Of a stretch of DNA of 64,000 nucleotides, positions 8,697-49,864 are shown in pieces. The DNA is from an uncultured Flavobacteriaceae bacterium (lineage in GTDB: Bacteria > Bacteroidota > Bacteroidia > Flavobacteriales > Flavobacteriaceae). The notes beneath the pieces are model-generated. The model ran no database searches, was not told the DNA's origin, and worked only from the letters and a program-made list of their open reading frames with translations. The stretch's first letter is position 1, and each line of letters begins with the position of its first letter. The translations under genes and the position numbers were made by a program. Where the stretch lies: assembly GCA_913048115.1 (NCBI GenBank), contig CAJWVI010000003.1:1-64000 (forward strand), given 5' to 3'.

Positions 8697-8749
8697 AGAA
8701 AAGATTATGGTTATTGGCTATTTTTGCAAACGAGCTTCAATATAATCAA

Positions 8750-9520
8750 ATGATTTTTCACTACCACAACACCCCGATACATTATCAAAAACAAGGCAGG
8801 GGATCTGCAATAGTATTACTTCATGGATTCTTGGAGAGCTCTACTATGTGGAATGAGATTGCGCCCAGGATGTCTAAAAAAAATACGGTCATCACGATCG
8901 ATTTTCCAGGATTTGGACAAAGTGATCCCCTTGCAGAAACATTTAGTATGGAGTTACTGGCATCGATAACCTCAGAAATATTAAACCTTGAAAAAATCCA
9001 AAGTGCTTTGCTTATTGGTCATTCTATGGGAGGTTACGTAGGGCTTGCATTTGCAGCATTATTTCCAGAAAAAATTAAAAAATTAATATTACTAAACTCA
9101 AGCCCTCGTAAAGATAGCGAAGAAAGAAAAGGAAACAGAAATAGGGCACTTGCTATTATTGACAAAAATAAAGACGCCTTTGTAAATATGGCTATTAGCA
9201 ACTTATTTACTAATGAAGAGAGATTACATCATACCAAAGCTATTCAAGCCCTTAAGAGAGAAGCCTTACAAATATCAGGCGCAGCAATTAAAGCAGCTAT
9301 TATTGGAATGCGAGATAGAACAGACACAACGGCAATATTAAAAAGTTTTGATGGGGAAAAATATATTATTTCAGGACGCTTGGACCCAATTATCCCACAC
9401 AATGACATTGTTGCCATTTCAAAAGAAACACAAACAAGTCTTCATACCATTGAAAGTGGACACATGAGTTGGCTAACAAACTGGAATGACATTGTTAGGA
9501 TTGTGAGTCTTCTAAAATAA
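8750..9520 (+). CDS. Alpha/beta hydrolase
   Basis: VLLHGFLESSTMW, GHSMGGYVGLAFA nucleophile elbow, late GHMSW His. Confidence 0.9.
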   Translation: MIFHYHNTPIHYQKQGRGSAIVLLHGFLESSTMWNEIAPRMSKKNTVITIDFPGFGQSDPLAETFSMELLASITSEILNLEKIQSALLIGHSMGGYVGLAFAALFPEKIKKLILLNSSPRKDSEERKGNRNRALAIIDKNKDAFVNMAISNLFTNEERLHHTKAIQALKREALQISGAAIKAAIIGMRDRTDTTAILKSFDGEKYIISGRLDPIIPHNDIVAISKETQTSLHTIESGHMSWLTNWNDIVRIVSLLK

Positions 9521-30404: not shown

Positions 30405-31559
30405 ATGTTACCTAAAAAGCTACAAGATAAAATAGACAAGCGATCTCGAGAGCAATCGATTCGGTCTTTGGGTTTGCCAAATCATTTCATAGATTTTTCT
30501 AGCAATGATTACTTAGGGTTTGGTAGTTCAAAAAATATTTTTAACGCGGCATCTGTTCTTTTAAAGCAACACAATCTAGAAGTAAATGGAGCAACGGGCT
30601 CCAGATTATTAACAGGAAATCATAGCCTATACCTTGACACAGAAAAACAAATAGCGGCCTTTCATAATACGGCTGCAGCACTTGTTTTTAACAGTGGATA
30701 CGATGCTAATCTTGGTTTTTTTTCAAGTGTACCACAACGAGGAGATGTTATTTTGTATGACGCGCTGTGCCACGCCTCTATAAGAGACGGTATTGGCATG
30801 AGCCGCGCTAAGGCATACAAGTTTGCACACAATGATTTAGAAAGCTTAGAGGCTTTGCTATTGGCTCAAAAACAAGCGAGTTCTAGCCTATGTGATCTTT
30901 ATGTAATTACAGAATCTGTTTTCTCTATGGATGGAGATCAACCAGAGCTTAAAGCTTTGGCTACTCTCTGTAAAAAACACAGGGCCTATTTAATTGTTGA
31001 TGAAGCGCATGCTATTGGTGTTATTGGCAACAAAGCTGAAGGTTTAGTGCAGGCTTTAGGGATTGAAAATCAAGTATTCGCTCGCATTGTTACTTTTGGC
31101 AAAGCTTTGGGTTGCCACGGTGCTGCTATTTTAGGGAGTTGCCAGCTAAAGCACTATTTGATAAATTTTGCAAGAAGCTTTATTTATACAACAGGATTGC
31201 CACCACACACACTGGCTACGATACAGGCAGCCTATGCTGAGTTAGATCTTAATGTTTTGTCTATAAAACAGTTAAAGAAGAATATTACATTCTTTCAAAA
31301 TTGTATTATTAAAGCTGGTCTAACCCCTCACTTTATACAAAGCCACTCTGCCATACATAGCTGTATTATAGGCGGCAATAGCGCCACTAAAGATGTTTCG
31401 GCACTACTTCAAAAAAGAAATTTTGATGTTAAAGCTATTCTATCCCCAACCGTGCCTAAAGGCCAGGAGCGCTTACGTATTTGTTTGCACACTTCTAATA
31501 CAGAAAAAGACATAGCCGCCTTAGTTACCGTGCTAAAAGAATATTTTTTCAATACATAA
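30405..31559 (+). CDS. bioF: 8-amino-7-oxononanoate synthase
   Basis: IDFSSNDYLGFG, GATGSRLLTGNH, VDEAHAIGVIG, TFGKALGCHGAAILGS PLP-Lys motif; in biotin cluster. Confidence 0.95.
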   Translation: MLPKKLQDKIDKRSREQSIRSLGLPNHFIDFSSNDYLGFGSSKNIFNAASVLLKQHNLEVNGATGSRLLTGNHSLYLDTEKQIAAFHNTAAALVFNSGYDANLGFFSSVPQRGDVILYDALCHASIRDGIGMSRAKAYKFAHNDLESLEALLLAQKQASSSLCDLYVITESVFSMDGDQPELKALATLCKKHRAYLIVDEAHAIGVIGNKAEGLVQALGIENQVFARIVTFGKALGCHGAAILGSCQLKHYLINFARSFIYTTGLPPHTLATIQAAYAELDLNVLSIKQLKKNITFFQNCIIKAGLTPHFIQSHSAIHSCIIGGNSATKDVSALLQKRNFDVKAILSPTVPKGQERLRICLHTSNTEKDIAALVTVLKEYFFNT

Positions 31560-31673: not shown

Positions 31674-32291
31674 ATGAAAAACCACACCTATTTCATCACA
31701 GGCATCTCTACAGATGTTGGTAAAACAATAGTTTCAGCCATACTCACGGAGGCCTTACAGGCAGATTACTGGAAGCCAGTGCAAGCTGGAGAGCTAGAGC
31801 ATAGTGACACACACAAAGTGCAACAATTAGTTTCTAATACTATAACAAAATTTCATGCTTCTGCATTTAATTTACAAAGCCCTATGAGCCCTCATGCCGC
31901 AGCAAAGATTGATGGCATTTGTATTTCAGCAAAGAAAATAAAGCGCCCTTCTACCACAAACAACCTAGTAATAGAAGGTGCAGGAGGGCTATTAGTGCCC
32001 TTAAACGACACAGAAACTATTATTGATTTAATGCTGCCAACAGATAAAGTAATTGTGGTATCTAGGCATTATTTAGGAAGTATTAATCACACTTTATTGA
32101 CACTTGAGGCTCTAAAATTAAGGGGGATGAACGTCTTTGGAATTATTTTTAATGGAGCTGAACACCCAAGCACAGAGGCAGCTATTACAAAAATGAGTGG
32201 AGTTGCTGTTTTGGGGCGTATCGATCAAGAGCCCTATTTTGATAAAAATGTAGTAAAAGAATATGCTAAAAATTTAAGAGAAGTACTTTAA
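31674..32291 (+). CDS. bioD: Dethiobiotin synthase
   Basis: YFITGISTDVGKTIVSAIL P-loop, WKPVQAGE, VIEGAGGLLVPLND. Confidence 0.96.
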   Translation: MKNHTYFITGISTDVGKTIVSAILTEALQADYWKPVQAGELEHSDTHKVQQLVSNTITKFHASAFNLQSPMSPHAAAKIDGICISAKKIKRPSTTNNLVIEGAGGLLVPLNDTETIIDLMLPTDKVIVVSRHYLGSINHTLLTLEALKLRGMNVFGIIFNGAEHPSTEAAITKMSGVAVLGRIDQEPYFDKNVVKEYAKNLREVL

Positions 32292-32392: not shown

Positions 32393-33664
32393 ATGAAATT
32401 AACCCAACGAGACCGCGCCCATATTTGGCACCCCTTAACTCAGCACCAAACAGCTAGGCCTCCCGTTGGTATCGTAAAAGCAAGTGGGTCTGTATTGATT
32501 GATGAAGATGGAAAGAGTTATATAGACGGTATTGCATCTTGGTATACCGCCATGTTTGGACATTGTAACCCCTACATTACTAATGCGATGACTCAACAAA
32601 TGCAAACTCTAGACTTTGTTATGTTTAGCGGTTTCACTCATGAACCAGCCGTGCAACTTTCAGAAAAGGTTTTAGCTATTTTGCCTGCTAATCAACAAAA
32701 AGTATTTTTCAATGATAATGGTTCTACCGCTGTGGAGGCCGCTATTAAAATGGCAATTCAATACTACCATAATAAAAGTAAAAAAAGAGATACTCTTATA
32801 GCTTTTCAAGATGGCTTTCATGGAGACACCTTTGGAGCTATGAGCGCCTCTGGACTGTCTTCTTATAACGGGCCTTTTGAAGATTTTTTATTAAACGTAA
32901 AACGCATACCTACCCCGCAATCTCATAATTTGAATGAAGTTCTAGCAGCGCTTGAAAAAATTCTACAAGAAAATAACTGTGCTGCTTTTATTTTTGAGCC
33001 TTTAGTTCAAGGTGCCGCCGGCATGAAGTTTCATAGCGCAAAAGGCCTAGATGCCTTACTTGCTATGTGTAAAAAGCACGATGTGCTTTGTATTGCAGAT
33101 GAAATCATGACTGGTTTTGGAAAAACAGGAACCAATTTTGCGGTAGAACAGTTAGAAAATACGCCAGATATTATGTGCCTTAGTAAGGCCTTAACAGCGG
33201 GCATGTTTCCATTGAGCATTACAAGTTGCAGTCAAGAAATTTTTGATGGATTTTTAAGTCAACAGGTCCACAAAGGTTTTTTTCATGCCCATACTTATAG
33301 TGCTCACCCCATTGGTTGCGCCGCTGCGATAGCCAGTATTGAGTTGCTTACCTCACCTGAGATTTTAAAACAACGCGCCTATATAGCTCAATCCCATAAA
33401 GATTTTGCAATAAAAATAGAGAGTCACCCTAGTGTAAAACAAGTACGTTGTAAAGGGGTAATCCTAGCAATAGACCTTGCTGTAGAAATGCAGCGCTACG
33501 GAAATTTACGTGATGACCTCTACCAGTTTTTCATGGATCGAGGCGTGGCCCTTAGGCCTCTAGGAAACACTGTGTATGTGCTCCCGCCTTATGTAATTAC
33601 AAATAATGAACTTGATACTATATATCAAGCAATAGAGGCAGTGTTGGCTTTTTATGATAATTAG
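32393..33664 (+). CDS. bioA: Adenosylmethionine-8-amino-7-oxononanoate transaminase
   Basis: HIWHPLTQHQ, DGIASWYTAMFGHCNP, ADEIMTGFGKTG, CLSKALTAG, GVALRPLGNTVYVLPPYVI. Confidence 0.97.
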   Translation: MKLTQRDRAHIWHPLTQHQTARPPVGIVKASGSVLIDEDGKSYIDGIASWYTAMFGHCNPYITNAMTQQMQTLDFVMFSGFTHEPAVQLSEKVLAILPANQQKVFFNDNGSTAVEAAIKMAIQYYHNKSKKRDTLIAFQDGFHGDTFGAMSASGLSSYNGPFEDFLLNVKRIPTPQSHNLNEVLAALEKILQENNCAAFIFEPLVQGAAGMKFHSAKGLDALLAMCKKHDVLCIADEIMTGFGKTGTNFAVEQLENTPDIMCLSKALTAGMFPLSITSCSQEIFDGFLSQQVHKGFFHAHTYSAHPIGCAAAIASIELLTSPEILKQRAYIAQSHKDFAIKIESHPSVKQVRCKGVILAIDLAVEMQRYGNLRDDLYQFFMDRGVALRPLGNTVYVLPPYVITNNELDTIYQAIEAVLAFYDN

Positions 33665-33746
33665 TCTCTCTACTATTGCCATTTCTTTGATATTTAAAGC
33701 CTCTAGAAAACAAAGAATCTTTATTTTTGCATGAAACAATAAAACC

Positions 33747-34907
33747 TTGCCAGCACCTATTACTATTTCAGCAATTGCTTCTATTTCTGCTTTGGGAAAT
33801 TCACCCGAAGGAGTTTGGGGAAGTTATGTGTCAAAGAGGCCATTATTTTCCAAGAAGAAAATAGGATCTCAAGACGTTTTTGTAAGTGAAATAGCCTCTG
33901 ATGTAGAAAAAAAATTGGCTGTCTTGAGAGCCTCAAACCCTAGTTACAAAATACTAGATCGCACCGTTTTATTAGCGATGATAGCATCAAAGCAAGTCAT
34001 TAAAGGTCTCCCGTTTCTAAAAGAAAACATGGGTATAAATATTGGATCCTCAAGAGGAGCAACCTCTTTGTTTGAAAAATACCATACTGCTTTTACAGAA
34101 ACCGGGAAGGTATCTCCCTACAGCTCACCCACTACTACTTTAGGGAATATTTCTTCTTGGGTTTCTCAAGAATTAGAAACACAAGGAGTTCAAATAGACC
34201 AATCTGTTACTTGCTCAACGGCAATGCACGCCCTTTTAAATGGTATTGCATGGTTACAAGCAGATATGGCAGACGCTTTTTTGGTTGGCGGCAGTGAAGC
34301 AGCATTAACTCCCTTTACCATTGCGCAAATGCAAGCGCTAAAGTTGTATACAAAATCCAAGCATACTAGTGCCTGTGAGTCTATGCGTTTTCAAAAAACT
34401 AAAAACACAATGGTGCTTGGAGAAGCAGCAGCTGTCGCTGTTTTGGAAAAAGGAATTTCAGTAAACACCAAGGCAATAATTAAGGGCTATGGATTTGGTT
34501 CTGAAATACTGGCTCATAATAGCTCCATTACCGAAAATGCTAACAGCCTACAGAAGGCTATGAGAATGGCCTTAGAAAAAGCCGCACTTACTACTGTAGA
34601 TGCAATTATAATGCATGCCCCAGGAACTGTAAAAGGAGATGTTGCAGAAAAAAATGCAATCGACATTGTGTTTAAAAAACAGCTTCCATTACTAACGTCA
34701 AACAAATGGATGGTAGGCCATACCTTTGCCGCAAGCGGAATGTTAAGTATAGAGATGGCAGTGTTTATGTTAGAGCATAATATATTTATTGAAAACCCTT
34801 TTTATAGCAACACTAGAAACCTTCCTCTATCCATAAAAACAGTACTAGTTAATGCCGTAGGTTTTGGTGGTAATGCAGTGAGTATTATTCTATCTCGCCC
34901 AAACTAA
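33747..34907 (+). CDS. Divergent beta-ketoacyl synthase (KAS I/II-like) in biotin cluster; TTG start predicted
   Basis: SVTCSTAMHALLNGI (active-site Cys), MHAPGTVKGD (AHGT region altered), MVGHTFAASGML (second His), NAVGFGGNA. Confidence 0.88.
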   Translation: MPAPITISAIASISALGNSPEGVWGSYVSKRPLFSKKKIGSQDVFVSEIASDVEKKLAVLRASNPSYKILDRTVLLAMIASKQVIKGLPFLKENMGINIGSSRGATSLFEKYHTAFTETGKVSPYSSPTTTLGNISSWVSQELETQGVQIDQSVTCSTAMHALLNGIAWLQADMADAFLVGGSEAALTPFTIAQMQALKLYTKSKHTSACESMRFQKTKNTMVLGEAAAVAVLEKGISVNTKAIIKGYGFGSEILAHNSSITENANSLQKAMRMALEKAALTTVDAIIMHAPGTVKGDVAEKNAIDIVFKKQLPLLTSNKWMVGHTFAASGMLSIEMAVFMLEHNIFIENPFYSNTRNLPLSIKTVLVNAVGFGGNAVSIILSRPN

Positions 34908-34973: not shown

Positions 34974-34981
34974 TATTTTTG
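34974..34981 (+). promoter_or_regulatory. -7 box TATTTTTG of bioB, 4 nt before ATG
   Basis: TAnnTTTG consensus match. Confidence 0.65.
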
Positions 34982-34985
34982 AACC

Positions 34986-36074
34986 ATGATGGAGACAAAA
35001 CATAATTGGACCAAAGAAGAAATTTTAGAGATATACAACACCCCTCTTATGGAGTTGTTGTATAAGGCTGCAACTGTTCATAGAGCAAATCATAACCCTA
35101 ATCAAGTGCAGGTCTCTACCTTACTGTCTATAAAAACAGGTGGTTGCCCAGAAGATTGTGGCTATTGTCCTCAAGCGGCAAGATATCACACAGATATTGA
35201 AGGAAATGATTTAATGAGTGTGCGACAGGTAAAGGCACAAGCCTTAAGAGCAAAGTCTAGCGGTAGTTCCCGTGTTTGTATGGGAGCTGCATGGCGAAAT
35301 GTAAAAGATGGGCCAGAGTTTGACAGCGTTTTGGAAATGGTACGAACCATTAATAAGCTAGACATGGAGGTTTGCTGTACTTTGGGTATGATTACAGAAA
35401 ACCAAGCACAGCGTTTGGCAGAAGCTGGGTTATACGCCTACAATCATAATTTAGACACCAGTGAAGATTATTATAAAGATGTTATCTCTACTAGAGCATT
35501 TCAAGATAGATTAGACACCATAGACAATGTGCGTAAAACCAATGTAACAGTTTGTAGTGGAGGAATTATAGGGATGGGAGAGGCCATTGAAGACAGAGCA
35601 GGAATGTTAGTAGCCCTTGCACGTTTAAGCCCACAACCAGAAAGCACCCCCATTAATGCATTAGTTCCTGTAGAGGGAACTCCAATGGAAGAGATAGCGC
35701 CGGTATCAATTTGGGAAATGATACGGATGGTTGCTACTACCCGTATTGTATTGCCTAATACACAAGTACGTTTGTCTGCAGGGAGAACACAAATGTCTCG
35801 TGAGGGACAAGCAATGTGTTTCTTTGCGGGAGCTAATTCTATTTTTGCAGGAGATAAGCTATTAACAACGCCAAATCCAGATGTGCATGAAGACATGAAA
35901 ATGTTTGAGTTGTTAGGATTGGAGCCTATGAAACCTTTTGTAAAGAAAGACCAACCTCAAACAGTTGACGCACAATATTCAAAATATAAAGATCAAGGAG
36001 AAAAGCCAAAGTGGACACGTCCAGGTCACACAATTGAACGTAACGTAGAGGCAAAAGCAAAGGTAAAAATTTAA
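34986..36074 (+). CDS. bioB: Biotin synthase (radical SAM)
   Basis: KTGGCPEDCGYCPQAARYHT CxxxCxxC, SRVCMGAAWRNVKDGPEFD, YNHNLDTSEDYY, SAGRTQMSREGQAMCFFAGANSIFAGDKLLTT. Confidence 0.99.
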   Translation: MMETKHNWTKEEILEIYNTPLMELLYKAATVHRANHNPNQVQVSTLLSIKTGGCPEDCGYCPQAARYHTDIEGNDLMSVRQVKAQALRAKSSGSSRVCMGAAWRNVKDGPEFDSVLEMVRTINKLDMEVCCTLGMITENQAQRLAEAGLYAYNHNLDTSEDYYKDVISTRAFQDRLDTIDNVRKTNVTVCSGGIIGMGEAIEDRAGMLVALARLSPQPESTPINALVPVEGTPMEEIAPVSIWEMIRMVATTRIVLPNTQVRLSAGRTQMSREGQAMCFFAGANSIFAGDKLLTTPNPDVHEDMKMFELLGLEPMKPFVKKDQPQTVDAQYSKYKDQGEKPKWTRPGHTIERNVEAKAKVKI

Positions 36075-49126: not shown

Positions 49127-49234
49127 AAAAAAAACAATTTTTATCTCCACCAGGGCAGAGAACTTATTAATATTTACTACTTTGTAATGGTATTTTTTCG
49201 GAATGCAAAAATACACAAAACCAATCAAATTATA

Positions 49235-49864
49235 ATGCCTCTTTACAAAACTATAACATTTAACGCCAACACTAAGCTCCTGATATGGAAGATAGAAGAG
49301 TCATTTGATGTATTGTGTGAAGGAATTGAATTAACAGATCATTGCCAAGATCGTGTTCATGGCATGAAAAGTGATCTACATCGTCGGGGCTTCATGAGTA
49401 TTCGCCATCTTTTAGCCAAATTTGGGTATACAGATTTTGATTTGTTTTATGACGAAAATGGAAAACCACACCTCACGGATGGCAAACACATTTCAATCAC
49501 ACACTCTTATACTTTTGCCGCCATTATTATTAGCGATGTAGAAGTTGGTATTGATATAGAAAAACAGCGCACTAAAATTTTAAAGATTGCCCATAAATTT
49601 ACTCCAGTAGAGGAATATAGCACCTTAGCTAATGAAGATGCAATTGTGCGAAAACTCACTATTGTCTGGGGTACTAAAGAGGCTGTATATAAAAGCTTTG
49701 CCCATCCTGGAATTAGTTTTATAGAACATATTTTTGTAGAAGATTTCAGACTAGATGACCAGAGTACCTCTGCTAAAGTATACGCAGATAATAGAAGCGA
49801 AACCTATAATATTTGCTTTCAAGAATTCGAAGAATTTACATTGGTATATGCTGTAATTTCTTAA
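49235..49864 (+). CDS. 4'-phosphopantetheinyl transferase superfamily protein
   Basis: [25 protein letters not shown]. Confidence 0.9.

Follow-up and report, generated by a model that had tools for sequence, protein, structure and literature searches.

Bacteria obtain the seven-carbon acid needed for biotin in different ways, and this step is still partly unsolved; the locus described here raises the question of which enzyme provides the acid in an uncultured Flavobacteriaceae bacterium whose biotin genes, all on one strand, are arranged bioF-bioD-bioA-KS-bioB, where KS is a FabF-type ketosynthase. BioE, a diiron oxygenase that uses O2 to cut long acyl chains, was recently described as a fourth pimeloyl route (PMC12915131), and Flavobacteria are reported to be major producers of biotin in the sea (PMC9561691). 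No published description of the KS was found in the open-access literature, subscription papers and preprints being outside that scope. Should the KS represent a further route, a missing biotin step would be filled for many Flavobacteria, and vitamin-auxotrophy predictions relying on bioC would be corrected. One of its arginines, R103, would in addition offer a one-residue test of a fatty-acid synthase accepting a free acid.

The biotin cluster and its ketosynthase

The window, i.e. the whole 64,000-nucleotide stretch that was analysed, belongs to a genome of 2.0 Mb in 80 contigs that is 90% complete. Model matches to its five bio-cluster genes (Table 1) bear out the gene order read in the initial annotation, as well as the lack of a BioC-like methyltransferase and of an esterase, since neither was found between the bio genes of the window. 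TIGR00858 was dropped as a clean marker of bioF, as serine-palmitoyltransferase-like paralogs score equally high, and bioB and bioD were used as pathway markers in its place.

The KS matches both the N- and the C-terminal ketoacyl-synthase domains of Pfam. Its top NCBIfam model is fabF (TIGR03150), with 132.1 bits against a curated cut-off of 493.75, which places it outside the FabF equivalog, and no curated NCBIfam model is matched above its own cut-off. FabF (KAS II) gives the best sequence and Foldseek matches and shares with the KS the fold family, the Cys-His-His residues, the lysine and GFGG, whereas the KS is ~25% identical to it, about 26 residues shorter and in a separate clade.

A search of the rest of the genome for bioC and bioG, as the initial annotation had proposed, gave no true match. 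The best match to the BioC model scored 67.8 bits against a cut-off of 184.95 and reads as a MenG/UbiE-type methyltransferase, and neither a BioG esterase nor BioE was found in this 90% complete genome. The completeness bounds the absence of these routes in the window's genome, not the order-wide pattern presented below. The searches for known routes covered BioC and BioE over the 298 genomes of the order described below, BioW over the KS-carrying genomes among them, and BioG in the window's genome.

Two other genes of the window can be mentioned. A generic alpha/beta hydrolase, which may have a BioH-like role, is encoded at 8714-9520, 21 kb away from the bio cluster, and a 4'-phosphopantetheinyl transferase (ACPS superfamily) at 49187-49864.

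Table 1. Coordinates of the biotin cluster, of selected KS codons and of associated elements (window positions unless a locus is named)
Feature	Position	Strand	Basis
bioF	30405..31559	+	TIGR00858 E=4.8e-103, under curated cut-off; also from cluster context
bioD, dethiobiotin synthase	31674..32291	+	TIGR00347, over cut-off
bioA, DAPA aminotransferase	32393..33664	+	TIGR00508, over cut-off
TATTTTTG, matches Bacteroidota -7 promoter box TAnnTTTG	33722..33729	+	consensus match only
KS, FabF-type ketosynthase, 386 aa, TTG start	33747..34907	+	Pfam PF00109/PF02801; fabF best NCBIfam
R103 (FabF Ile108 position), in invariant SRG of SSRGAT; proposed carboxylate binder	34053..34055	+	alignments
C156, nucleophile (FabF Cys163)	34212..34214	+	alignment; invariant
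H290, first catalytic His (FabF His303), motif MHAPGT	34614..34616	+	alignments; invariant
K320 (FabF Lys335)	34704-34706	+	alignment; invariant
H325, second catalytic His (FabF His340)	34719..34721	+	alignment; invariant
TAnnTTTG box of bioB	34974-34981		consensus match
bioB, biotin synthase	34986..36074	+	TIGR00433, over cut-off
~130-aa protein between bioF and bioD of relatives	L015:7178-7594, L020:7164-7577, L022:6758-7162

Catalytic residues

The motifs VTCSTAMH, VGHTFAASG and GFGG listed in the initial annotation are all found in the KS. A proline had also been read at the position of the first catalytic histidine, in MHAPGT. However, HMMER comparisons with FabF of the PDB, with the single sequence as well as with a profile, align the His of MHAPGT gap-free with the His of AHGTST in FabF, and MAFFT alignment with E. 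coli FabF gives the same pairing of H290 with His303. The spacing from this His to the next conserved Asp is eight residues in both proteins. The replacement of His by Pro is therefore rejected as a register error, a slip of two residues that arose because two 'GT' pairs were matched, and the altered part is confined to the four residues past the His, where the loop reads HAPGT in the KS and HGTST in FabF. Residues C156, H290, H325 and K320 are identical in all ~60 orthologs aligned, and the C156/H290/H325 triad together with K320 is canonical and intact.

The initial annotation had named such a canonical alignment beforehand as evidence against its reading, and the alignment does dispose of the catalytic claim while leaving the pathway claim standing. 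A catalytically impaired KS, serving as a decarboxylase only or as a chain-length factor, would suit the unusual HAPGT loop but is hardly credible, given that the Cys, both His and the Lys are aligned and that every catalytic residue of a condensing enzyme is present and invariant. Chain-length factors have no active-site Cys, and this hallmark fails in the KS, where C156 is invariant.

A separate family with a conserved neighbourhood

The nearest relatives of the KS, at 75-80% identity, come from metagenome bins of Ulvibacter, a Flavobacteriaceae and Aequorivita. The KS orthologs form a clade apart from FabF with 100/100 support, in a tree with long branches and three outgroup sequences only. 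They carry the signature SSRGAT, TCST, HAPGT-x2-GD, NKW-x2-GH and GFGGNAV, and the changes with respect to FabF are Ile108 to Arg, HGTST to HAPGT and TAC to TCS. By these sequence features, the KS is a previously unnamed FabF-related family, present in the bio clusters of many marine and soil Bacteroidota.

The bioF-D-A-KS-B order is kept across Flavobacteriaceae and in further families, in one of which bioA, KS and bioB overlap by 4 bp (L063, L064), and the KS is found beside bioA, bioF or a full bio set in Bacteroidota of other orders and of another class (L125-L130). A survey of bio-cluster neighbours across Bacteroidota had been proposed from the outset, and the linkage indeed recurs beyond the order. 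In some loci unrelated genes (a flotillin-like pair, a small membrane protein) are found within the cluster, between KS and bioB, as could be expected if the KS merely shared the neighbourhood and made another acyl product, e.g. for a lipid or pigment; however, these inserts are not conserved, whereas the KS is.

In many relatives a small conserved protein of ~130 aa, absent from the window, is encoded between bioF and bioD (Table 1).

Distribution of pimeloyl routes in Flavobacteriales

In one sample of 298 Flavobacteriales genomes searched for KS, BioC, BioE and bioB, the KS was found in 53, BioE in 29, BioC in 3 and bioB in 94, the KS being thus commoner than BioE. All carriers of KS, BioE or BioC have bioB (85/85), and no genome out of the 298 holds two of the three. 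Within the 53 KS genomes, no BioW (PF03744 pimeloyl-CoA ligase) was found (0/53), nor any match to the BioC profile at E=1e-30 or better; this profile does detect E. coli BioC and divergent bio-cluster BioCs of the same order (G029, G035, G044). Since BioE has no Pfam model, it was first identified in two Chryseobacterium-type clusters from its published ligand spacing, after which a profile search was made. The BioE homologs at L109:2594-3214 and L110:864-1484 have the diiron ligand spacing exactly as published, and both loci also carry a divergent MocR-type gene (BioL-like). The BioE-BioL system of Elizabethkingia/Chryseobacterium serves the same step of the pathway as the KS, and does so within the same order, but BioE is an unrelated protein of different fold, and its pattern of E-x26-ExxH-x68-E-x29-ExxH over about 205 aa is not found in the KS.

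The Fisher test on co-occurrence treats genomes as independent even though they share ancestry, and the route swaps within clades are better evidence than the Fisher values. BioE is present in G268, although many genomes of its genus carry the KS, and its bioE-bioF-bioD-bioA cluster (L135:8571-12163) looks like a replacement of the KS, perhaps by transfer. Conversely, G169 carries the KS, though it lies within the BioE family of bacteria. The bio genes are dispersed in G169, G003 and G013, yet KS, bioB and bioD are all retained.

Nine genomes have bioB and none of KS, BioE and BioC. Eight of them are without bioD and therefore have no de novo pathway that would need a pimeloyl source. In G261 (73% complete) both bioB and bioD are present and none of the three routes was found. 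The bioA, bioB, bioF and bioD genes of this genome, on one 8.4-kb contig (L144), are of a quite different kind and may be contamination or belong to another pimeloyl route. Several Flavobacterium-like genomes (L131, L132, L133, L134) have bioB without bioD, two of them with a lone bioF as well. Genomes of this type carry lost-pathway remnants and probably use desthiobiotin.

The association of the KS with biotin, as seen in gene content and neighbourhood, is strong. That the KS is a mere neighbour is highly improbable in view of the presence of bioB in 53/53 KS genomes, of BioE or BioC in 0/53, and of the retention of the KS after linkage was lost. The proposal of an alternative early biotin route made in the initial annotation is strongly supported by the mutual exclusion of KS, BioE and BioC and by the constant presence of bioB, and we consider that the KS very probably supplies the pimeloyl moiety for biotin.

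R103 and the acyl pocket

The position of Ile108 in FabF, which we take to be the floor of the acyl pocket and to limit chain length, is an Arg (R103) in every KS ortholog examined, down to ~30% identity, and the Arg is thus also found in the 30-37%-identical orthologs of other families, other orders and another class. Its context is an invariant [S/A]-R-G, with SSRGAT in most orthologs, and the window genome's own FabF has Ile at this position. The AlphaFold model of the KS (12 sequences) has a pLDDT of 65.3, with low confidence at residues 91-117, the pocket region, and was used solely as fold confirmation; its best Foldseek matches belong to the FabF fold family, and the matches include the I108F FabF structure 4ls6. 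From the alignment to Ile108 and general knowledge of FabF structures, we hypothesize that R103 sits on the floor of this pocket and binds the free terminal carboxylate of the primer. While the link with biotin is well supported, the substrate of the KS and the job of R103 are thus put forward as a working hypothesis.

The invariant Arg also bears on whether the route could follow the logic of BioC-BioH or BioC-BioG, which would have the same expected end product, pimeloyl-ACP. The KS could be a specialised elongase acting after a very divergent BioC and one of many alpha/beta hydrolases, in line with the generic hydrolase of the window, the many SAM methyltransferases of the window's genome and the notorious interchangeability of BioH-type esterases. 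This is quite unlikely, since the BioC profile that finds divergent BioCs of the same order finds none at E=1e-30 or better in the KS genomes, the loci examined show no methyltransferase that is consistently next to the bio genes, and a methyl-ester substrate would leave the invariant pocket Arg without a reason.

Possible routes to pimeloyl-ACP

A ketosynthase in a bio cluster has a precedent in BioZ (Agrobacterium, Brucella), which replaces BioC-BioH, a role that the KS probably shares. The KS also shows the linkage that characterises BioZ, being bio-linked where BioC is absent. BioZ holds the free carboxylate of glutaryl-CoA through S84, R147 and S287 at the tunnel end (PMC8024396). The prediction of an Arg at the carboxylate site goes back to Hu and Cronan (PMC7645780), and such a role is proposed here for R103 of the KS. 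However, BioZ is a KAS III enzyme with the FabH fold and Cys-His-Asn, whereas the KS is of the KAS II type with Cys-His-His. Judged by its sequence, the KS is not a BioZ and would at most be an independent recruitment.

Taken together, the KS is probably a FabF-type enzyme that builds pimeloyl-ACP from a malonyl or glutaryl primer, with the primer carboxylate on R103, independently of BioC-BioH, BioI-BioW, BioZ and BioE. As an active condensing enzyme of the FabF fold with Cys-His-His, the KS would be loaded at C156 with a dicarboxylic acyl primer, whose free omega-carboxylate would be gripped by R103 at the pocket floor; a positive charge there should allow a carboxylate-ended primer to be accepted. 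The bound primer would be condensed with malonyl-ACP, and the housekeeping FabG, FabZ and FabI would reduce the product to pimeloyl-ACP whose acid terminus is free, for use by BioF. Against this explanation, FabF-type enzymes normally take acyl-ACP, and we know of no source of glutaryl-ACP.

The primer could be glutaryl-ACP or glutaryl-CoA, in which case a single round as in BioZ would give 3-oxopimeloyl-ACP from glutaryl and malonyl-ACP. In its strict form, where the KS takes only glutaryl-CoA/ACP derived from lysine or tryptophan breakdown for one condensation, this possibility draws on the chemistry of BioZ and its Arg/Ser tunnel end, and a C5 acid would presumably be well matched by an Arg that points up from the position of Ile108. 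It is nevertheless rather unlikely, as G011, a 99% complete KS genome of which 83% was read, has just two acyl-CoA dehydrogenases, and for both of them butyryl/short-chain enzymes are much nearer relatives than glutaryl-CoA dehydrogenase. These were found by motif and homology; a divergent one could escape the motif, and another could lie in the 17% uncovered.

The G011 result leans to a malonyl-primed model, in which the KS would join an R103-held malonyl with malonyl-ACP twice (malonyl to glutaryl to pimeloyl, with 3-oxoglutaryl-ACP as first product), so that pimeloyl-ACP would come from malonyl alone, free of esters. Such a route would need no catabolic source, which fits KS genomes of ~1-2 Mb as well as G011, and would account for a KS without an accompanying BioC or esterase. 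On the other hand, malonyl on the Cys of KAS II enzymes is prone to decarboxylation, and we know of no FabF that is primed by free malonyl, so that we regard this reading as a possible one, somewhat short of an even chance. Under it, the Arg pocket would stand in for the methyl ester with which E. coli masks the acid group, added by BioC and removed by BioH. The broader proposal of a malonyl-only, methyl-free biotin route, in which one residue of the KS would replace the ester 'cloak' of BioC/BioH, is a little more tentative still.

Start codons, putative promoter boxes and gene copies

Two KS copies of equal score are found in G093 on two contigs (C10:28240-29409 and C19:97118-98287), each followed by bioB, and may represent a duplication or assembly redundancy.

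Among the 13 closest KS orthologs, the window counted (loci L012-L023), the start codon is TTG in 11, GTG in 2 and ATG in none, while their bio neighbours mostly start with ATG. The TATTTTTG box sits 17 nt upstream of the KS start in the window and is kept in relatives, the start lying 17-19 bases past it in most of the 13. The conserved weak start codon suggests a deliberately low expression of the KS.
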